Shown here piece by piece: positions 12,743 to 61,901 of a stretch of 62,123 bases of DNA. Location: positions 1 through 62,123 of the IMG/VR virus record IMGVR_UViG_3300020190_004289; one strand, written 5' to 3'. How positions within the stretch are numbered: position 1 is the stretch's first letter; each line of letters opens with the position of its first letter. The notes beneath the pieces were generated by a model. The model was not told the origin of the DNA, did no database searches, and was given only the letters and a program-made list of their open reading frames with translations. Source of the stretch: a virus. The translations under genes were made by a program, and so were the position numbers.

Positions 12743-13642
12743 ATGGCTATGGACTTTTCTGCCCTCAAAAAAAATCGTGGTAACTTTGATTCCTTAATGA
12801 AGGAAGTCGAAAAGATTGCTACCCCTCAAGTTGAAAACTCACAAAAGGACGATCGGTTTTGGCAACCAGAAGTTGACAAAGCTGGAAACGGTTACGCTGT
12901 AATCAGATTTCTACCTCCTCCTAAAGGAGAAGATCTTCCGTGGGTTAGAATTTGGAATCATGCTTTTCAAGGTCCCACTGGTAAGTGGTATATTGAAAAC
13001 TCTCTAACTACACTAAGCAAACAAGATCCAGTTTCAGAACTTAATACTGAACTGTGGAACTCTGGTAGCGAAGACAATAGAAACATTGCACGTAAACAAA
13101 AGAGAAAGCTTACCTACATTTCTAACGTTTATATTGTAAAAGATCCAGCACATCCTGAAAACGAAGGTAAGACTTTCTTATTTAAGTTTGGTAAAAAGAT
13201 TTTTGATAAAATCAAAGACGTAATGCAGCCTACTTACGAGGATGAAGAAGCTATTAATCCTTTTGATTTTTGGAAAGGTGCAAACTTTAAACTGAAGATT
13301 CGTAATCTAGAAGGTTATCGTAATTACGACAAGTCTGAGTTTGATAGTATTGAACCACTATCAAGTGACGATGATGAGTTGGAAGGTATTTGGAAGAAGC
13401 AACACTCTTTACAAGAGTTTCTCGATCCTAAGCATTTTAAATCTTACGAAGAACTCAAGAGCAAGCTAGAGCAAGTCCTCTCTGCATCTGGTGCTTCTAT
13501 CTCTCGTGCAGATGAGGTAGATTTGCAAGAACAAAAACCTTCTAAGCCAGCTACTGCAGTAAAACGTAAGAACAATGATATTAATTTGGACGATGAAGAC
13601 GAATCTTTGTCCTACTTTGCTAAGCTAGCAAACGAAGACTAA
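12743..13642 (+). CDS. 32: gp32 single-stranded DNA-binding protein
   Basis: A 299-residue T4 gp32 homologue coating ssDNA in replication, recombination and repair. The basic N-terminus (self-interaction), OB-fold core (YAVIRFLPPPKGEDLPWVRI onwards) and acidic C-terminal tail (DDEDESLSYFAKLANED) are in order. There is no cysteine in the whole protein, so the zinc ribbon of T4 gp32 is absent, as in many cyanophage homologues. It converges on the minus-strand tail operon; the two stop codons overlap. Confidence 0.93.
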   Translation: MAMDFSALKKNRGNFDSLMKEVEKIATPQVENSQKDDRFWQPEVDKAGNGYAVIRFLPPPKGEDLPWVRIWNHAFQGPTGKWYIENSLTTLSKQDPVSELNTELWNSGSEDNRNIARKQKRKLTYISNVYIVKDPAHPENEGKTFLFKFGKKIFDKIKDVMQPTYEDEEAINPFDFWKGANFKLKIRNLEGYRNYDKSEFDSIEPLSSDDDELEGIWKKQHSLQEFLDPKHFKSYEELKSKLEQVLSASGASISRADEVDLQEQKPSKPATAVKRKNNDINLDDEDESLSYFAKLANED

Positions 13643-15447
13643 TAAGTACTTACTCTTCCAATATAGTTGTCTAACGCGGATCCCCGATTGTTTGGTCGGG
13701 GATCTGCTTTTATGGGGATATAGTTATTAGTGCTTGTGTTAGTGACGTTATTAGAAACAATGGGTTGAGTACTTCCTTTGGAAGTAGAAATTTCATCCCT
13801 TAAAGATTGATTTTCTACAGACGTTTGTGCCACATCAGAAATAGATGTAGGCGCTGGTGAAACTGATGCTTGATTATAAACTGCCTCTCCCCTACTTCTT
13901 TGTTTTTCATCCATCTCTTTCATATATTTTTCTTCAACGGGCGTTAACGGCCCTACATCTTCCCCTCTTAAATGTTGGCGTACTTTAGCTCGTATTTTGC
14001 CTTCTTCAGAGTTAGGATCTACTTTATCATTATAAACAAACTTATTGTCTGCAGTACCGGTTGTGGAGGACTCAGCTGGGGTACTACCGGTCACAGCAGT
14101 TGTAGGTGTTGTAGTGGGTTTTGCAGAAGATCCAATTCGTGGCGCTTCACTGCTACTATCTAATGCTGCTTCAGTAACTGAAGACCCGGCTCCCTTAGCT
14201 GATACTGCTTCAGTAACTGAAGACCCGGCTCCCTCAAATCCCTTACCCTGATTATAAACTGCTTCACCACCGCTTCTATTTTTTTCATTCCACCGGTCGG
14301 CGTAAGCTTGTTCTAAAGGCGTTAATGGTCCTACATCTTCCCCTCTCATTGATTGACGTACTTTAGATCTTATTTTACCTTCTTCAGAGTCTTTACCTGC
14401 TGTATCGTTAAATTTAAACTTGCTTAGTTTTGCTTCAACTTCAGGAGATGCTTTTTTAGATGCCGAAGGGGTATCAGAAGCTGTACCAGCTGCAGCAGGA
14501 GCAGCAGACGCTGCAATTGCACCACCAATCTTTGTGGCTGGTGTAGGAGCAGTAGAAGCAGGTTGTGTAGCTGGTGCAGGAGCAGTAGAAGCAGGTTTAG
14601 GTGAAAGAAAAGTGCTCTGAAATAAGTCATCTTCTTTTGATAGACCAGAGCCTGCAGCTTCTTCTATTGATGCTGATCCAGACTGAAGCCTTTGATCCAT
14701 GTCTGCTTTCTTAACAGCAGCTTCATCTTTTGTTTCTGCTATTTGACTTTCTTTTTTAAATCCAAGGTACGCAAGACCTCCAACTAATCCAACAGCAGCA
14801 GCTCCAGCTGCTACACCTCCAACTGCCCCCATTCCTAGTTTTGAGCCAGTACTAGCAGCTTTACCTACTGTTGATGCTTTACCTGCTTTACCTATTTTTC
14901 CAGGAAGATCGGGTAGGGAAGGTGATCCACCACTACCAGAAGATTTATCTTCTGTAGTCTGATTTAATTTTTTAAGTTCTTTAAGTATTTCTTTTTGAGT
15001 CTCACTAGTCTCTTCAGCTGTTTTTAATTGATCTATTTCTACTTGCTTGGGTTGGTTTAAGGCATCCTTGGCCTCTAAAGTTTCTGCTGAACTCATAACT
15101 GGAGCAGCATCCGGCTTAGTGTAATAGTTTGATTTTACCGATTCCTTTACACCTTTACCAAAACTTTTAATACTACCAAAAAAAGATTTAAGTTCATCCT
15201 TTAAAGTAATTTCTTTTTCTTCTTCGTTAGGACTATCTCTCCCACCCCCTTCTTTTTTACTTCTATTGCTTTTACCCAAAGATTCATGAATTTTCTTTAA
15301 ATTTTCATTTATACTTTCTAAAAGCTTAGTTTGTTTTTCTCTAACCTCTTTTGCCTTAGATTCTTGATCCAAAGCATTAATGCTCTTTTTTGAGAGGTCA
15401 GATATTGCACTTTTAAATTCGTCGCTGCCTGGAGTAATTATAGCCAT
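13639..15447 (-). CDS. Candidate tape-measure/baseplate hub protein (gp29-like position)
   Basis: A 602-residue protein. The N-terminal 110 residues form a charged coiled coil; an Ala/Gly hydrophobic segment lies near 205-235; the middle is Ala/Pro/Ser/Thr-rich. Two imperfect repeats share GKIRxKVRQ, RGEDVGPLTP and GEAVYNQ. The C-terminus (NNYIPIKADPRPNNRGSALD) looks folded. Its length is close to T4 gp29 (590 aa), the tape-measure/hub protein, and it directly follows gp26 and its frameshift extension, the usual order of tail chaperones then tape measure. Sequence identity to gp29 is not visible by eye, so the role is inferred. It also carries the gene 32 terminator on the opposite strand. 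Confidence 0.5.
   Translation of the reverse strand: MAIITPGSDEFKSAISDLSKKSINALDQESKAKEVREKQTKLLESINENLKKIHESLGKSNRSKKEGGGRDSPNEEEKEITLKDELKSFFGSIKSFGKGVKESVKSNYYTKPDAAPVMSSAETLEAKDALNQPKQVEIDQLKTAEETSETQKEILKELKKLNQTTEDKSSGSGGSPSLPDLPGKIGKAGKASTVGKAASTGSKLGMGAVGGVAAGAAAVGLVGGLAYLGFKKESQIAETKDEAAVKKADMDQRLQSGSASIEEAAGSGLSKEDDLFQSTFLSPKPASTAPAPATQPASTAPTPATKIGGAIAASAAPAAAGTASDTPSASKKASPEVEAKLSKFKFNDTAGKDSEEGKIRSKVRQSMRGEDVGPLTPLEQAYADRWNEKNRSGGEAVYNQGKGFEGAGSSVTEAVSAKGAGSSVTEAALDSSSEAPRIGSSAKPTTTPTTAVTGSTPAESSTTGTADNKFVYNDKVDPNSEEGKIRAKVRQHLRGEDVGPLTPVEEKYMKEMDEKQRSRGEAVYNQASVSPAPTSISDVAQTSVENQSLRDEISTSKGSTQPIVSNNVTNTSTNNYIPIKADPRPNNRGSALDNYIGRVSTY
13676..13711 (+). terminator. Rho-independent terminator for gene 32, inside the opposing gene
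   Basis: GCGGATCCCCGA (13676-13687) pairs with TCGGGGATCTGC (13696-13707) around an 8-base loop, followed by TTTT on the plus strand. It lies about 35 bases beyond the gene 32 stop, within the last codons of the convergent gene, so one sequence serves as terminator and as coding DNA. Confidence 0.75.
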
Positions 15448-15606
15448 TTAAATATGCTTTGAGTTTTGTTTTAAAATTTTAAGTCTTTCGTTTTCGTTCT
15501 TTACAAAATCTACCAACATTGTAATATAAACTTCCCTTTCCCAAGGCATCATATTTTCTATTTCAGTTAATGAATATTTGTGATGTTGCATTAACGAAAA
15601 ATTCAT
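15448..15606 (-). CDS. Conserved small tail protein, probably made as the -1 frameshift extension of gp26
   Basis: From ATG 15606 it gives 52 residues with the conserved-looking core MQHHKYSLTEIENMMPWERE and VYITMLVDFVKNENER. The same frame is open upstream without a start to the end of gp26, where the added residues RLTLSQESLINYFSMNF read as natural protein. This supports synthesis by -1 frameshift from gp26 (231 + 66 residues); independent initiation at 15606 is also possible. Phage tail assembly chaperone pairs (lambda G/GT type) use this arrangement just before the tape-measure gene. Confidence 0.75.
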   Translation of the reverse strand: MNFSLMQHHKYSLTEIENMMPWEREVYITMLVDFVKNENERLKILKQNSKHI

Positions 15607-15641
15607 ACTAAAATAGTTAATTAAACTTTCCTGAGAAAGGG

Positions 15642-16340
15642 TTAGACGAAAAAATTTTGCAGTCCTTCTATTCGTGAAGTATTATGATGTCCACACTTAG
15701 GACAATCCGATTCTACTTCTTGTACTATTTTTGGAGACGTAATAAAAAACTGCTCTATTTTTTCAAACTGCTCCTTAGTTAAACTGTTTATAAAAATATC
15801 TAAATCTTCTTCAGACTGTTCATCTATATCCCAATACTGATCTTCTTGAAACACTCCTTTAACACACTTTTTAACCATTTTAAATACTTCTTCTGTGTTA
15901 TCTGATTCGTAAATTTTTACTACAGAATCAAACTTTGGATATCTCATATGTACACCAACACTATTATTAATCATAATTTTATTAGTGTGGTTATCTTTTT
16001 TTTCTACCTTTAAATTTTCAATATTAAAATTAGAATCGTAGTTCTCTTTACAGTTAGCACAAGTAATCACCACTTCAACTTTTTCACTAATAGACTTTGC
16101 TCTTAGTTGCATAAAAATGTATTCAACATCAAAGTGAGTAAGTTCTTTAGTATTTAACTTTTGAAACGTACACACATCTACTATTTCGTTTACAATCCTA
16201 ATTACTTCGTCTTCGCTTGCTTCAGCCATAGTAAGTAAAACTTTATGCTCTTTAACTAAAAATGGCCTAAATCTTACTGGCTTATCGGTTGAAGGTAAAA
16301 TTAATTCATAAGTTGGTACTTCAAGAATTGGTAAAGGCAT
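15642..16340 (-). CDS. 26: gp26-like baseplate hub subunit / tail assembly chaperone
   Basis: A 232-residue protein of the T4 baseplate hub gp26 family (208 aa in T4). The N-terminus PLPILEVPTYELILPSTDKP and the mid segment FDVEYIFMQLRAKS are typical. Two CxxC pairs (C94/C97 and C213/C216) suggest a zinc ribbon. The gene ends ...QNFFV-stop on a T TTT TTC slippery heptamer that gives access to the -1 frame. It lies 15 bases after the tube-like protein gene. Confidence 0.8.
   Translation of the reverse strand: MPLPILEVPTYELILPSTDKPVRFRPFLVKEHKVLLTMAEASEDEVIRIVNEIVDVCTFQKLNTKELTHFDVEYIFMQLRAKSISEKVEVVITCANCKENYDSNFNIENLKVEKKDNHTNKIMINNSVGVHMRYPKFDSVVKIYESDNTEEVFKMVKKCVKGVFQEDQYWDIDEQSEEDLDIFINSLTKEQFEKIEQFFITSPKIVQEVESDCPKCGHHNTSRIEGLQNFFV
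15648..15654 (-). promoter_or_regulatory. -1 programmed frameshift slippery site
   Basis: On the minus strand T TTT TTC is in the X XXY YYZ phase, covering the Phe230-Phe231 codons of gp26, one codon before its stop. Slippage by -1 continues for 66 codons to 15448. The slip therefore happens at the last possible position, as in known tail chaperone frameshifts. Confidence 0.75.
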
Positions 16341-16355
16341 AATATCTCCATAAAA

Positions 16356-17060
16356 TTAAGGCGACAGAGGAAAGTTACTTCCTTGATCTGCTCCAGTTCC
16401 ACCTGGGTTGTTATCTGAACTCCACGAAAAAGAGGCAAAGTTTCTCACGGGAGTGTTCGTAGAGAGGTTTGGTACAATAGAAGGAGAGACTAAAGGTATT
16501 CCTTTCTTGCGAGCAGATAAATCTGTTCTTCTCCACAAACGATATGCAAAAATAATATTTAATCTGTGTGTTTGGTTTTGAGAAGCTTGATTTAAATCCA
16601 TTAAGTTCATACTACGAGGAAAAGCTTCTAACAAATCTACTCCGTATGTTATTTGATCTCTTTCGTCTAACTGATTAATAGTTATTTCACTTCTATAGTC
16701 TTCTTGAAATCTAACTTCAAAGGAATCTCTATCTATAATAGTTTCCATCCAATCATCAAAAAATTTTTTTACTTTCATTTCTCTATCAACATGAAAAGTC
16801 ATGCTTATTCCGTCCCCACCATATTCAGATCCGATTGGTCTTTGCTCTGAAGGACCAGAAGCTATCTTCAAAGGTCTTACAGATAAATTTAAAGGGGGAA
16901 AGTTGGAAATTTCTGCAAATAAACTTACAAGTCTAGAATTTTCTGAGTTTACGCTTCCTCCAATTCTGGGAGGTTTAATTAAAACTTCAAATCTATTAGA
17001 TCTAGCTAAACCTCTAGACTTTACTTGAGCTTGAAAGTTGGCTAAACTGAATGTGGCCAT
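16356..17060 (-). CDS. Tail-tube-like protein, probably baseplate tube initiator gp54
   Basis: A 234-residue protein with the T4 gp19-type tube fold pattern: N-terminal SRGLARSNRFEVLI, a FAEISNFPP segment, GISMTFHVDREMKVKKFFDD and the Tyr/Leu-rich end of the barrel (VDLLEAFPRSMNLMDL). T4 gp54 (320 aa) and gp48 share this tube-like fold and start tube assembly; gp48 lies nearby at 18116. A main tube protein gp19 would usually be next to the sheath gene, which is not in this window, so gp54 is favoured. Shares one base with the upstream gene. Confidence 0.65.
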   Translation of the reverse strand: MATFSLANFQAQVKSRGLARSNRFEVLIKPPRIGGSVNSENSRLVSLFAEISNFPPLNLSVRPLKIASGPSEQRPIGSEYGGDGISMTFHVDREMKVKKFFDDWMETIIDRDSFEVRFQEDYRSEITINQLDERDQITYGVDLLEAFPRSMNLMDLNQASQNQTHRLNIIFAYRLWRRTDLSARKKGIPLVSPSIVPNLSTNTPVRNFASFSWSSDNNPGGTGADQGSNFPLSP

Positions 17061-35789: not shown

Positions 35790-37616
35790 ATGGCAACTCC
35801 TACTTACAGCGTAATTGATCCTATAGCACAATCCTTCTTTATTGATAAACCGTGCGTTGTCACAAAAATGGATTTGTTTTTTAAATCAAAAGACAATTTT
35901 ATTCCAGTTACTGTGCAGTTTAGAAAAAATCAACTAGGGGTACCTGGTCCATACATTATTCCTTTGTCCACTAAATTACTTTCTCCCAGTTCTGTATTAG
36001 TTTCTAGTAATGCAAATGTAGCAACTACTGTAAACTTTACTTCACCGATATTTTTAGATACTGGGGAATACTCAATTACATTAGGAACTACCTCTAAAAA
36101 ATATTCTGTCTGGATCTCTGAATTAAACTCCACAGATATAATTTCAGGTAAAAATATTACAGAACAACCTTATATTGGAAATTTGTTTAAAGGACAAAAC
36201 ATAACATCGTATACTCCTGTATTAACCCAAGATTTAAAATTTATACTTTACAGAGCATCTTACAATACAAGTGTGGTTGGATTTATAGATTTTAAAGTAC
36301 CTGGCTATCACAACACCACTAAGCTACTTGAAAATGATCCGTTAGAATTGTTTCCTAATAGTTCAATTATGAGAATTCATCACAAGGATCACCCATTCAC
36401 GAATCAATCATATGTAAGGTTATTAGGTATAGCAAATGCTTTTCCGTTTGGAAATGTTTTAAGTCCAACCATTTTTGGTGGTATAACATCAACGTCTATT
36501 GAGGGAAGGCATTTTGTTGTAAGTAACGTTAGGTCTGACTCTTATACCGTAAATCTTTCTGAATCCTCAACTGTTACTTCAGCATTTAGATTTGGTGGTC
36601 CTGCTATCGTAGTAGATAGTGATTTAAGATTTGATACTATCTACCCAAAAATACCACATATTAAACAATCTGGGAATATTTCAAGCTCATTTAAAGCTGC
36701 TTCTTTATCATATACTTTAGATTCGTCGTTTAAAACTTTAGCTGACGACGATAATGAGTTGGATTACACAAGAATAATTGCTAGCAATGTAAACACTACT
36801 TTTAGACTTTCTAACGCAACTCCGTTTGTATATAGGATAAACTTTTCTTCCAATAACACCCTCACATCTCCTCTAATAGATAAATCTCAAATTGCCGTTG
36901 TATTGGTTAATAATAAAATTAACTCTCCAAATATTATCACAGAAAATTTAAGATACGACAGAGCAAACGTAGCTGTTTTGTCAAAAGCTAATATATACGT
37001 GTTAAATGGAAATGTAGCTTTAATATCCTATGCGTCTGCAAATGTGAGCGAGATAAACAATGCTAAAAGTATTTTAAACGGTACTGATTTAGTTATTACA
37101 GGCTTAAATCCAAACAACGGTCAGTACAGAGTATTAGAAGTTTTAAACGGTGGTGCAAATATTAAAGTTCTAAAATTAGCTAATTCTATTTCAGTAGTTA
37201 CTGATGCTAATATACAAAACAACCATACTATTGTAAACGCTTCTCAATTTGTATATGAGGAAGCTGCTACTGGTGGAAGTGCAATTTCAAAATACATAAC
37301 TAAAAAAATAGATTTTGTAAATCCTTCAACCTCTATCAATATTAGAGCAGATGTTTCTCAGCCAACAGATACAGAAGTATTGTTTTATTTTAAAACTAAA
37401 TTAATTGGTGAAGCCGAAAGTTTTGATGTTAAAGAGTTTACCCAAGTAGAAAATGTTACAATTGCACCTTCACTTGATGGTAAATTTATTGAAGTTGAAA
37501 AACAAATAGATGCATTAGAGCCTTTTGATTCTTTAATAATTAAAATTGTATTTAAATCATCGCTCACTTATAAAGTTCCTAAAGTAAAAAATTTAAGGGT
37601 TATAGCTTTAGAATGA
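35790..37616 (+). CDS. Baseplate wedge/structural protein related to the distal part of DUF4815 proteins
   Basis: A 608-residue beta-rich protein starting with IDPIAQSFFIDKPCVVTKMD, a motif that in other T4-like marine phages occurs in the same polypeptide as the DUF4815 domain. That suggests the ancestral protein is split here between this gene and the previous one. FIDFKVPGYHNTTKLLEND and a C-terminal jelly-roll-like segment follow. Likely gp10-like in role. Confidence 0.6.
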   Translation: MATPTYSVIDPIAQSFFIDKPCVVTKMDLFFKSKDNFIPVTVQFRKNQLGVPGPYIIPLSTKLLSPSSVLVSSNANVATTVNFTSPIFLDTGEYSITLGTTSKKYSVWISELNSTDIISGKNITEQPYIGNLFKGQNITSYTPVLTQDLKFILYRASYNTSVVGFIDFKVPGYHNTTKLLENDPLELFPNSSIMRIHHKDHPFTNQSYVRLLGIANAFPFGNVLSPTIFGGITSTSIEGRHFVVSNVRSDSYTVNLSESSTVTSAFRFGGPAIVVDSDLRFDTIYPKIPHIKQSGNISSSFKAASLSYTLDSSFKTLADDDNELDYTRIIASNVNTTFRLSNATPFVYRINFSSNNTLTSPLIDKSQIAVVLVNNKINSPNIITENLRYDRANVAVLSKANIYVLNGNVALISYASANVSEINNAKSILNGTDLVITGLNPNNGQYRVLEVLNGGANIKVLKLANSISVVTDANIQNNHTIVNASQFVYEEAATGGSAISKYITKKIDFVNPSTSINIRADVSQPTDTEVLFYFKTKLIGEAESFDVKEFTQVENVTIAPSLDGKFIEVEKQIDALEPFDSLIIKIVFKSSLTYKVPKVKNLRVIALE

Positions 37617-37828
37617 ATAAATTAAAAGTAAAAGATTATCCTGGATTAGTAAGAGACTCTTCGTCGAAAGCTATTATAAATGTTGATCAATCGGCTTATT
37701 TAAAGTATAAAAATGAAAGAAATGTTCAACAAAAAATTTCTAATATGAGTACAGAAATTAATAATTTAAAACAATCTATGAATGAAATTAAAGATTTAAT
37801 TTCTCAAATTTTACAGAGAACTAATTAA
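37613..37828 (+). CDS. Small coiled-coil virion-associated protein
   Basis: A 71-residue protein: LKVKDYPGLVRDSSSKAIIN, then a C-terminal coiled coil (about residues 35-68). Such short proteins lie between wedge and fibre genes in T4-like cyanophages. It overlaps the preceding gene by 4 bases and abuts the next. A linker or trimerisation role is possible. Confidence 0.6.
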   Translation: MNKLKVKDYPGLVRDSSSKAIINVDQSAYLKYKNERNVQQKISNMSTEINNLKQSMNEIKDLISQILQRTN

Positions 37829-57798: not shown

Positions 57799-58521
57799 CA
57801 TTGTTTTTGGATCGTCTAATAATACATGAGGACGCCATGGATTATGTTGCATTGTTATTGGTAAAACTATATCTACGGCAATACTAATTCGTGTCTTTTC
57901 TGTCTTATCGCTGTAATGTCTAATCCAGCTTGGAAAAAATATCAATCTACTTTCCTTTGTTTCGATATGAAATTCCATCTCCCTCTCCCCCTGAATCCCA
58001 AAGGGATGTACAATCCTTAAACACGAATTATCTGATTGAGGATAGTAAGTTCCAGCAAGGTATGCATTATTATTAGCAACATGGCAGTGGCTGCTAATAA
58101 ATTCCCCAGGTCTTAGAACATTTGCCCAGCAATGGGCATAGACTTTTACTCTAGGTGCTTTTATGTCAGATAAAAAAAGTAAGTAATTTTCTCTAAATTT
58201 CTTAAAAAGTTCATCTTGTATAGGGTTAGGTTTAAACTTCACAAGATGATCGCCCTCTAACCTTGGACCAGTGTCGTCAAATAAATTGTGTTGTTTCCAT
58301 TGTTGTGTAAACTTGTAAGGATCACTATCATTTTTTGATATTGGACTTACCAATTCTTCTTCCCGAAGGATTTGTTCACATTCTAAAACGTATTCTATTA
58401 GCCTCTTATTAAATTCTGATGTTCCATCTTGTGAACAATAAATCGGGGCATTAATATCCAATGCAAAGACTGAATTGGCTTTACCTTCATTTCCATTCCA
58501 AATTATAGTACGTTTACTCAT
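57787..58521 (-). CDS. 2OG-Fe(II) oxygenase-like protein
   Basis: A 244-residue protein of the TIGR02466-like family seen in T4-like marine phages. A beta-helix core is suggested by SSHCHVANNNAYLAGTYYPQ with candidate His ligands, then SRLIFFPSWIRHYS with the distal His and TRISIAVDI with the Arg that binds 2-oxoglutarate. Substrate unknown. It is the last gene of the leftward glycan-type operon and overlaps the carbamoyltransferase gene by 8 bases, so action on the same product is plausible. Confidence 0.75.
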   Translation of the reverse strand: MSKRTIIWNGNEGKANSVFALDINAPIYCSQDGTSEFNKRLIEYVLECEQILREEELVSPISKNDSDPYKFTQQWKQHNLFDDTGPRLEGDHLVKFKPNPIQDELFKKFRENYLLFLSDIKAPRVKVYAHCWANVLRPGEFISSHCHVANNNAYLAGTYYPQSDNSCLRIVHPFGIQGEREMEFHIETKESRLIFFPSWIRHYSDKTEKTRISIAVDIVLPITMQHNPWRPHVLLDDPKTMKGL

Positions 58522-60271
58522 CTGTTTTGTTGGGAACTTTAATTAGTTTACTTATTTCTGGTAAGTAGAGATACTCTATATCAGAACGCCTTAAAGTATC
58601 AAGAGCATCATCTATTGTTTCAACAAGTGGATCTCCACCAAGATTAAATGATGTATTAAATAGTATTGGAACATTAGTTAATTTATAAAATTCTTCTATC
58701 AAAGCATAGTAATGTTCATTTTGCTCTTTTGTGACTGTCTGAATTCTGCACGATTTATCTACGTGAATAATTGAAGGTATTTTTTCTTCTACACCTGATT
58801 TACAATTTACAGCGTACATCATAAATGGACTTTCTTCTAAGCCCCTTAAATCAAACCAATCATGCACATACTCTTTTAATATTGTTCCAGCAAAAGGTCT
58901 AAACCATTCACGTTTCTTTACGCCATTAACTATATCTTTACCGTTAACAACAGTCGGATCAAATAATATACTTCTGTTACCAAGAGCTCTTGGACCTCCT
59001 TCAGAACCACCTTGATAAAGCGCTACAATATTTTCTTCTCGAATTAATTTTGCTACATCAGCTGGAGATACATCCGACATTGATTCGTTATTTTGAAGCA
59101 AAATATCATATGAACCTTTTTCTGCAAAATAATTTGGTCCATAGTAAATGTGTTTTGTTTTACGAATGATGTTATCCTCACAAAGAGTGTGGTGTGCAAG
59201 TTTTGCAGCACCTATACAAGTACCTCCATCGTGACTGATGGGTTCGTTGTATATTTTAACTCCCTCCGGGAGATGAGCAAGGTATTCATAATTTGCTACA
59301 CAATTTAATCCATAACCTCCCGCTACTACAATATTCTTACAGCCTGTCACTTCAATAGCTTTAAGAATAAGTCTTAATACTTCTTTCTGTGTGGCTTGCT
59401 GTACTGCATAGGCGAGATTTTTTTGAACTGTAAGATTGTCTGTATCTAAGTACGGATACATCACTCTATCAATATGTGCACCATTTGGATAATTAGGAAC
59501 AAATAGGTTACGATTGCTGAAATAACGTCCTTCCTTACCGTGAAATATAAAAGGTATGTTTGGGTCTTCCTCACCATAAGAAGCAAGACCCATGGCCTTA
59601 CCTGCCTCTATAAAAGGAAACCCACAATAATCTGTCATCGCTTCATAACATTTTGTAATACCAGGTTTATCAGAAAAAATAACATCATGTAAAACATCTT
59701 CACGCCCACGGTGAGAATGAGGTACTTGAATTTTTTCAAATGCAAGTTGAGGACCTCGTAAACCAATATGTTTGTATTTTGTCATAATGTTGGCTGGATA
59801 CTGAGCATGAAAAATACTCTCTAATTCCCAACCTATAGCATTTTCACCTAACGGAACAAAAGTACCTGCACCATCAACAATAACACAAGCTGCCTCTTCA
59901 AATCCCGAATTATAGAAAGCACAAGCTGCGTGCAGTTCGTGGTGTATCATTCCGTAATCTTTTACTTGGGGATGTTCTCTTCCGCTAAAACGTTGATCTA
60001 TGAGACCAATTTTACGAGCAAAACCAGTGTACATATCATCACCAGTAAAATCAATTTTACCAGCAGCTTCAAGGGGTTGAGTGTGTGCAACAGCTAGATA
60101 ATCTAGTTTGTCTGTATATTCCTTAATTTTTAACATGCCAGCTAAAGGACCACCGTCATATTTCTTTTTACTAAGTCTTTCTTCTTCGAGATAAAATACT
60201 ATTTCACCATCTTTAAGAAGGCATGTTGCACCATTGTGACCACGAGTAATACCTGCTATCCACACCGACAT
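58514..60271 (-). CDS. Carbamoyltransferase (NodU/CmcH/TobZ family)
   Basis: A 585-residue enzyme that transfers a carbamoyl group from carbamoyl phosphate, via carbamoyl-AMP, to a sugar or antibiotic hydroxyl. The N-terminal Kae1-like domain starts SVWIAGITRGHNGATCLLKD and has the metal motif HHELHAACAF; the C-terminal part holds GGPRALGNRSILFDP. The start is placed at ATG 60271, preceded by GGAG; an upstream in-frame TTG at 60283 overlaps that site. Suggests carbamoylation of a surface glycan or small sugar. Confidence 0.9.
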   Translation of the reverse strand: MSVWIAGITRGHNGATCLLKDGEIVFYLEEERLSKKKYDGGPLAGMLKIKEYTDKLDYLAVAHTQPLEAAGKIDFTGDDMYTGFARKIGLIDQRFSGREHPQVKDYGMIHHELHAACAFYNSGFEEAACVIVDGAGTFVPLGENAIGWELESIFHAQYPANIMTKYKHIGLRGPQLAFEKIQVPHSHRGREDVLHDVIFSDKPGITKCYEAMTDYCGFPFIEAGKAMGLASYGEEDPNIPFIFHGKEGRYFSNRNLFVPNYPNGAHIDRVMYPYLDTDNLTVQKNLAYAVQQATQKEVLRLILKAIEVTGCKNIVVAGGYGLNCVANYEYLAHLPEGVKIYNEPISHDGGTCIGAAKLAHHTLCEDNIIRKTKHIYYGPNYFAEKGSYDILLQNNESMSDVSPADVAKLIREENIVALYQGGSEGGPRALGNRSILFDPTVVNGKDIVNGVKKREWFRPFAGTILKEYVHDWFDLRGLEESPFMMYAVNCKSGVEEKIPSIIHVDKSCRIQTVTKEQNEHYYALIEEFYKLTNVPILFNTSFNLGGDPLVETIDDALDTLRRSDIEYLYLPEISKLIKVPNKTDE

Positions 60272-60272
60272 A

Positions 60273-61226
60273 CTATTCTCCAACTTTCTGTTTAATATCC
60301 GATAAAATATTTTTTATAATTTTATCTTCTTCTTCTTCGTTAAAATTCATACAACTATCGTTTATTCTATTTGATTCAACACACGCTAATTCACTTATGC
60401 GAATAGGATCATAGCGCTTTTGAATACCTTCTTTTTCGATGATGTTAAAAAATCCAGGGTAAGATACATTTATAGCAAACGTTGAGCCAAGTATAACAGT
60501 ACCTGGTATTTCATAACCTCTTGCTATATGTTGGCCCACACTATCACAACCTATAAAATAATCACATTGTTCAATAACACCAGCCCACTTTCTTAAAGTG
60601 ATGTCTTTGGGAGCAAGAGTAATATTATCTCCATAAATTTCAAATTCACTCATTGATATAAGATTGTAGTGTTCCTTAAGTGTGTTAACAATTTTTAAAT
60701 ATGTTGATAATTCAATACTTCGACTACCGTGGTCTACACATAAGCTTAAATTGTCATCTTTAATTACACCACGACCAAAAGGCTGAATAACAATTGTTTT
60801 TTCTTTACCGTGTTTTTCTTTAGCTGCCTTGGTAATTGCTAGACCGTAAAGCTCCTCCTCTTTATTGAGAGTAAGTTTTACTTTATAATTTTCAGCAGGT
60901 TCATAAGAACCATTTATTTGTTTATCGAACGCTTGAGCTAAACTGATTTTTTGATTATAATATTCCCATTCACGATAAGGTTCGGTGGTAATTATTTCCC
61001 CATTACGAATAATATTTTCAAATATACCTTTGGAGTTTGACTCAAATGTGCGGTCTTGTAGTAATTTATTTCCTAATACAAAATCCATACCTCCCTCGGT
61101 AATAATATAACTTTCGGGATTATTTCTAATAAATTTTTCTAAAGCTGGAAGTGAGCATATCATTCGTCCAGCACCACCGTTTACGAAAATACATTTATAC
61201 ATAGCCGTTCCATTACCTTTTGTCAT
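60273..61226 (-). CDS. Glycosyltransferase family 9-like protein
   Basis: A 317-residue protein with the layout of ADP-heptose:LPS heptosyltransferases: an N-terminal Rossmann start (YKCIFVNGGAGRMICSLPAL), a central TIVIQPFG and the C-terminal donor-site pattern CDYFIGCDSVGQHIARGYEI. Substrate not readable from sequence. An alternative start is ATG 61202 (MYKCIF). Next to a HAD phosphatase, as in heptose pathways. Confidence 0.75.
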   Translation of the reverse strand: MTKGNGTAMYKCIFVNGGAGRMICSLPALEKFIRNNPESYIITEGGMDFVLGNKLLQDRTFESNSKGIFENIIRNGEIITTEPYREWEYYNQKISLAQAFDKQINGSYEPAENYKVKLTLNKEEELYGLAITKAAKEKHGKEKTIVIQPFGRGVIKDDNLSLCVDHGSRSIELSTYLKIVNTLKEHYNLISMSEFEIYGDNITLAPKDITLRKWAGVIEQCDYFIGCDSVGQHIARGYEIPGTVILGSTFAINVSYPGFFNIIEKEGIQKRYDPIRISELACVESNRINDSCMNFNEEEEDKIIKNILSDIKQKVGE

Positions 61227-61232
61227 TATTTG

Positions 61233-61868
61233 TTATTCCTGTTCCAATGTCAACACAAAATCTTTCAAGTTAGAGTAAATTTGAACCTTTTCTTTACCCG
61301 GGAGATTAATTTTTTTAAGTTTTTCTTGTGCTTCAAGACCTTGACCGGTAAGTATTAAAATAGGAATAGCTTTAGCATTTAACGCCATTTTTACATCTAA
61401 TAAAGAATCTCCAACAATATAACCCTTACTAAATTCAACTCCTGTTTCTTTTTCCGCACGTTTTACCATACCTAAATTTGGTTTTGCGTAAACATCCGTT
61501 GCCTCGTCCGAAGTGTTATAATATAATCCATCAATAGACTGGCATCCAATCTCACCGAGAAGTTTAAACATATAATTATTGACGTTATCTACTTCTTGTG
61601 TGGTTAGTTTATTTCTATAAATACCCGGTTGATCACTAAACACAATTACTCGATGTCCCAATTGTCTCATGCGTAGTATTGATTCTAATGCACCGGTTAT
61701 GGGTTTAAAGTCATAGGGATTTTTAATAACTTGTTTCCATTCAGCAATTACTCCATCCCTATCAACACCAACAACAGGTTTATTGAATACAGTAGGAAAA
61801 GGTTCTGAAAAAGAAGAAGTATTTACTGACTTGATTGAATTAATTAATTCAAGTGTGTAACGCGACAT
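61233..61868 (-). CDS. HAD-family phosphatase, GmhB-like
   Basis: A 211-residue HAD phosphatase. GVDRDGVIAEW carries the catalytic DxD; VIVFSDQPGIYR matches the GmhB-type second motif (histidinol-phosphate/heptose-bisphosphate phosphatases), and YIVGDSLLDVKMA the acidic motif. The Cys zinc loop of true GmhB is missing: the region reads YYNTSDEATDVYAKPN. The start at 61868 is chosen for its TTGGAG ribosome site; an upstream ATG at 61889 lacks one. First gene of the leftward operon. Confidence 0.8.
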   Translation of the reverse strand: MSRYTLELINSIKSVNTSSFSEPFPTVFNKPVVGVDRDGVIAEWKQVIKNPYDFKPITGALESILRMRQLGHRVIVFSDQPGIYRNKLTTQEVDNVNNYMFKLLGEIGCQSIDGLYYNTSDEATDVYAKPNLGMVKRAEKETGVEFSKGYIVGDSLLDVKMALNAKAIPILILTGQGLEAQEKLKKINLPGKEKVQIYSNLKDFVLTLEQE

Positions 61869-61901
61869 TATCAACTCCAAGGGATACATTGTTTATCATT
61901 A

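Follow-up and report, generated by a model that had tools for sequence, protein, structure and literature searches.

Two tail assembly chaperone forms from one gene: a candidate programmed -1 frameshift in an uncultured T4-like myovirus

Our analysis indicates, with a probability that we put at about 0.9, that a single gene of a T4-like myovirus encodes two forms of a tail assembly chaperone, the longer of which would be made by a -1 frameshift at the very end of the shorter one. The gene lies on the minus strand of a stretch of viral DNA of 62,123 nucleotides (IMG/VR record IMGVR_UViG_3300020190_004289), which we call the window and to which all positions refer. A programmed frameshift had already been proposed in a sequence-only reading of this stretch, and it is now backed by a slippery heptamer in 281 of 288 related loci, by extensions that remain open and by selection acting in the -1 frame. 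The features needed for the argument are as follows.

15642..16340, minus strand: gp26-like 0-frame ORF of 232 aa, the putative short chaperone form; stop codon at 15644..15642
15654..15648, minus strand: slippery heptamer T_TTT_TTC, in phase, separated from the gp26 stop by a single codon (GTC)
15663..15668, minus strand: Shine-Dalgarno (SD)-like element GAAGGA, 8 nt 5' of the heptamer, a putative stimulator
15448..15648, minus strand: -1 frame extension of 66 codons (15648..15451) plus TAA, the predicted C-terminal part of the long form
15448..15606, minus strand: 'gp51' ORF of the gene caller, from an internal ATG at 15606 (a column that is Met in 4/155 relatives)
16356..17060, minus strand: tail-tube-like gene upstream of gp26 (phrog_45, 3.1e-27)
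13639..15447, minus strand: ORF of 602 aa, candidate tape measure protein, with its ATG at 15447 directly after the extension stop

According to the proposed mechanism, the majority of ribosomes would terminate at the gp26 stop and release the short form. A minority would slip by -1 while tRNA-Phe is paired with T_TTT_TTC in both the P and the A site, a step that is probably aided by GAAGGA, the SD-like element some 11 nt 5' of the site. These ribosomes would then continue into the gp51-like extension and yield a long form of ~297 aa. If the pair works as lambda gpG/gpGT does, a large number of short chaperones and a small number of long ones might together cover the tape measure protein and bring in subunits of the tail tube. 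That ribosomes slip here, how efficiently they do so, and that the products act as chaperones in this phage is what we infer from the sequence comparisons below.

The slip site, its conservation and the frame behind it

Direct reading of the minus strand bears out the earlier placement of the heptamer in phase, one codon short of the gp26 stop. Positions 15668..15642 read, in gp26 codons, GAA GGA CTG CAA AAT TTT TTC GTC TAA. After the slip the reading is CGT CTA ACC CTT TCT CAG and onwards, which translates as RLTLSQESLINYFSMNFSLMQHHKYSLTEIENMMPWEREVYITMLVDFVKNENERLKILKQNSKHI, and the -1 frame is indeed open for the 66 codons claimed (15648..15451) until TAA at 15450..15448. Taken alone the heptamer proves little, because the window is AT-rich and 8 of its 58 ORFs of at least 100 aa have a heptamer of the X_XXY_YYZ type within 22 codons of the stop, while some 51% of the codon choices for [S/D/N/A]-Phe-Phe would keep the heptamer anyway. 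We also considered another frameshift candidate, where ORF 35790..37616 of the window ends, and rejected it: the 71-aa ORF that follows (37613-37828, plus strand) overlaps the stop codon there with its ATG (ATGA) and is an ordinary coupled gene.

The comparison with relatives is far more telling. Scans of viral contigs, together with annotated phages, gave us 288 related loci in which a gp26 stop is present. T_TTT_TT[C/T/G] stands in phase at the gp26 end in all but seven of them (TTTTTTC in 246, TTTTTTT in 34 and TTTTTTG in one), a count which overstates the number of independent events, since the relatives share ancestry. Thirteen representatives that are mutually less than 45% identical all have the heptamer, as they were chosen for having it. 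This conservation exceeds what the amino acids demand: the Phe-Phe pair at the slip site is written TTTTT[C/T/G] in 156 of 156 non-redundant cases, each time with a T as the last base of the codon before it, whereas elsewhere in gp26 only 76 of 149 Phe-Phe pairs are TTTTTY. The loci that lack the heptamer are those of T4, RB49, Kimel, three Ackermannviridae and Vibrio phage D492; in the first three a full-length separate gp51 gene takes its place. One further apparent exception (L077) was discarded, given that its match ends at gp26 residue 222, which is the end of the contig and short of the site.

The extension itself is equally well kept. Every complete copy (269 of 269) spans 56-69 codons from the slip and none is truncated, in agreement with the earlier description of it as conserved. 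The same reading had noted that the residues ahead of the internal ATG look like real protein, and it named relatives without the heptamer, or with stops before this ATG, as evidence that would speak against a frameshift; the 288 loci give no such picture, and from the gp26 stop to the internal ATG purifying selection is seen for codons of the -1 frame alone (dN/dS 0.135, compared with ~1.3 in the other two frames). Chance can be ruled out on the strength of the heptamer in 281 loci, the uniform length of all 269 extensions and a selection that is specific to the -1 frame.

Stimulatory elements and rival explanations

Relatives carry GAAGG or GAGGG about 11 nt 5' of the heptamer. The mean energy of the predicted duplex with the anti-SD is -5.7 kcal/mol at this site, compared with -0.8 at other in-phase positions of gp26. 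An invariant Gly accounts for part of this signal. Recodings that preserve the amino acids have a mean of -4.6, however, and none of 200 trials reaches the observed value; the codons at the site are enriched for GAG (odds ratio 3.9) and GGA/GGG (2.6). Thus the element is favoured above what the encoded amino acids demand, and GAAGGA probably stimulates the frameshift. A search for a downstream stimulatory hairpin found no conserved structure within the window's own group (the window itself has z of -0.5 to -1.6). Strong hairpins do follow the heptamer directly in cyanophages of the S-PM2-like (z about -4 to -6) and P-HM1-like (z -3.4) groups, immediately 3' of the gp26 stop (loci L082, L104 and L098), and these may act as stimulators there. 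The kind of stimulator may therefore differ by clade.

It could be argued that the extension is simply a separate small gp51 gene, reached by re-initiation or coupling at the ATG at 15606, as database annotation has it. An ATG is indeed present in the window, and public records list short gp51 ORFs with varied starts. But these annotated starts disagree among relatives, and the ATG of the window corresponds to Met in just 4 of 155 non-redundant relatives. In 90 of the 155 there is no ATG, GTG or TTG ahead of extension codon 15, and in 71 a stop in the -1 frame lies within 6 codons upstream of the slip; where a start is missing and such a stop is present, no ordinary start would yield the conserved N-terminal portion of the extension, and a frameshift is the sole economical entry to the frame. 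Nor does a start at this ATG agree with purifying selection on the codons that precede it, or with the fact that the same region is fused in frame within T4 gp51. We give this explanation very little credence, and in our opinion ORF 15448..15606 is probably not an independent gene.

The same run of six T could instead let RNA polymerase slip, giving mixed mRNAs on which ribosomes need not change frame. Such a run is short for transcriptional slippage; most loci have TTTTTTC rather than a longer run, its phase is strict and an SD-like element lies 5' of it, all of which is as expected for tandem tRNA slippage, so that we regard slippage of the polymerase as highly improbable. It might also be said that gp26-gp51 is truly a single ORF, as gp51 of T4 is, and that faulty sequencing or assembly, or else decay of the gene, accounts for the frame change. 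The frame change is found, however, in the cultured and finished genomes of S-PM2, P-HM1, S-RSM4, Mosig, ValKK3 and Milchi as well, and conservation in 281 loci already refutes this explanation, the likelihood of which is practically negligible. A programmed -1 frameshift of ribosomes is thus the reading that we adopt.

Homology to T4 gp26 and gp51, and the neighbouring genes

The 0-frame ORF matches the profiles PF12322 (T4_baseplate, 6.7e-59) and phrog_150 (7.9e-62), and the extension matches phrog_634, 'baseplate hub assembly catalyst' (gp51), with 5.7e-25 from extension residue 2 onwards, that is, ahead of the ATG; NCBIfam contained no relevant model. When the fusion is compared with T4 families by hhalign, gp26 covers residues 10-237, the short form only (probability 99.8), while residues 7-252 of gp51 align with 13-288 of the fusion over its whole length (99.5). 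The extension alone aligns with residues 207-252 of gp51 (95.3). In control comparisons it scores 0.1 with gp26 and at most 0.3 with six other T4 proteins. The two T4 proteins are also related to each other (99.1). Since gp51 aligns to the whole fusion and gp26 to the short form only, the long frameshift product has its T4 counterpart in gp51 and the short form has its own in gp26; by these profile comparisons, the extension and the C-terminus of gp51 are homologues. Both T4 proteins are described as hub assembly chaperones (PMC3004832). The role in tail assembly that the sequence-only reading had suggested for the pair is accordingly supported by this homology, as it is by the literature on T4-like chaperones.

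The predicted fold points in the same direction. An AlphaFold2 model of gp26 (pLDDT 87, pTM 0.80) has as its best three matches, out of 993 aligned PDB chains, 3fgx (Z 7.5), then the HK97 tail assembly chaperone 2ob9 (Z 7.2, rmsd 4.1 A over 83 residues, a middling match) and then YqbN, 3klu (Z 5.3). Like 2ob9, 3fgx and 3klu are chaperones of this kind. A Foldseek search of the model against the PDB returned nothing significant. We consider the match of the predicted fold to HK97-type chaperones as support, not as proof.

The gp26-like protein (15645-16340, minus strand) also contains two CxxC pairs, CANC and CPKC, which match zinc ribbons weakly. The latter pair is encoded a little ahead of the slip site, and CxxC motifs are present in T4 gp26 and gp51 too.

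Upstream of gp26 lie genes for a tail-tube-like protein, a DNA end protector and a head closure protein. The pair had further been said to lie just upstream of the tape-measure gene. What stands of this is that a long ORF does adjoin the extension; that it encodes the tape measure is a candidate assignment, and no profile names it. The 602-aa ORF gave no PHROG and no relevant Pfam or tape-measure match, and ORFs at its position in other phages give partial tape-measure matches only. Its place, its length (near the 590 aa of T4 gp29) and a hydrophobic segment at about residues 208-228 are what suggest a tape measure. In 188 of the 269 loci, a long ORF starts between -17 and +12 nt from where the extension stops; the remaining 81 fall outside this check, many contigs stopping close by. 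Elsewhere in the window, on the minus strand, there are a Nol-like carbamoyltransferase gene and a weakly phosphoheptose-isomerase-like gene (58514-60283 and 61233-61889), which are possible sugar-modification cargo.

Annotation, evolution and known systems

Many T4-like genomes are annotated with gp26 and a truncated 'gp51' whose start varies, or the second product is omitted. In our opinion, they would be better annotated with a single gene that gives both products. Among the public T4-like genomes at L082, L084, L085, L087 and L097-L102, gp51 has inconsistent starts or, in S-H9-1 and LPCS28, is left unannotated despite an intact frame, so that the gap in annotation is systematic.

The Ackermannviridae (KpS110, PhaxI and RC-2014) and Vibrio phage D492 deserve separate mention. 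In these phages gp26 ends in ATT TTC ATT TAA or CTT TTC AAG TAA (L090:3280-3470, L093:3220-3410, L103:3230-3410, L092:3200-3400). A canonical heptamer is missing, but past the stop the -1 frame stays open for 50-59 codons and contains a conserved MPWHL motif.

We consider it somewhat better than an even bet that the short to long ratio in the wider T4-like phages (cyanophages, pelagiphages and myoviruses of Vibrio, Aeromonas and Pseudomonas) is set ancestrally, and in most of them still, by a U_UUU_UU[C/U] site with an internal SD-like stimulator, that a duplication into genes 26 and 51 replaced it in T4 and its close relatives, and that the Ackermannviridae use a third, unrecognised way.

The proteins of T4 are homologous to those of the window, gp26 to the short form and gp51 to the fusion. 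The difference is that T4 has two divergent genes, 26 (short) and 51 (long), while the window has a single gene with a -1 frameshift site. T4-like tail assembly chaperones are reportedly treated by Vladimirov, Gautam and Davidson (2022). PMC10885494 refers to that study for chaperones of T4-like phages that are encoded as one short gene and one fused long gene, and PMC12846349 refers to it for polyT slippery sequences in T4-like chaperone genes; according to these two papers, some T4-like phages use two genes, and polyT slippery sequences are known in genes of the T4-like short form. In phage Adele (PMC12846349) a -1 shift occurs at a polyT site and the downstream piece was misannotated as a gene, as in the window, but Adele belongs to other phage families (Vandenendeviridae/Andersonviridae) and its motif is GTTTTT.

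Lambda gpG/gpGT and the related pairs of siphophages and P2 resemble the pair of the window in having a short form, a -1 extended form and a heptamer near the stop. The heptamer of lambda is G_GGA_AAG, unlike T_TTT_TTC of the window. Lambda-type pairs adjoin the tape measure gene on its upstream side, and the pair of the window adjoins a candidate tape measure. The T4-type protein is larger than the lambda-type one and has zinc-ribbon-like CxxC motifs; the likeness drawn here is one of arrangement. PMC5009743 describes the lambda scheme and gives T4 as an exception.

As to the stimulator, E. coli dnaX has an SD-like element ~10 nt 5' of a homopolymeric heptamer, a spacing that the window's element resembles. 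The strong downstream hairpin which acts as an added stimulator in dnaX has no counterpart in the window.

The pair of the window is thus an uncultured instance of the already known frameshifted chaperone systems of T4-like and lambda type. What is new here is the breadth of conservation, the test of selection, the SD-like element and the exceptions among the Ackermannviridae.
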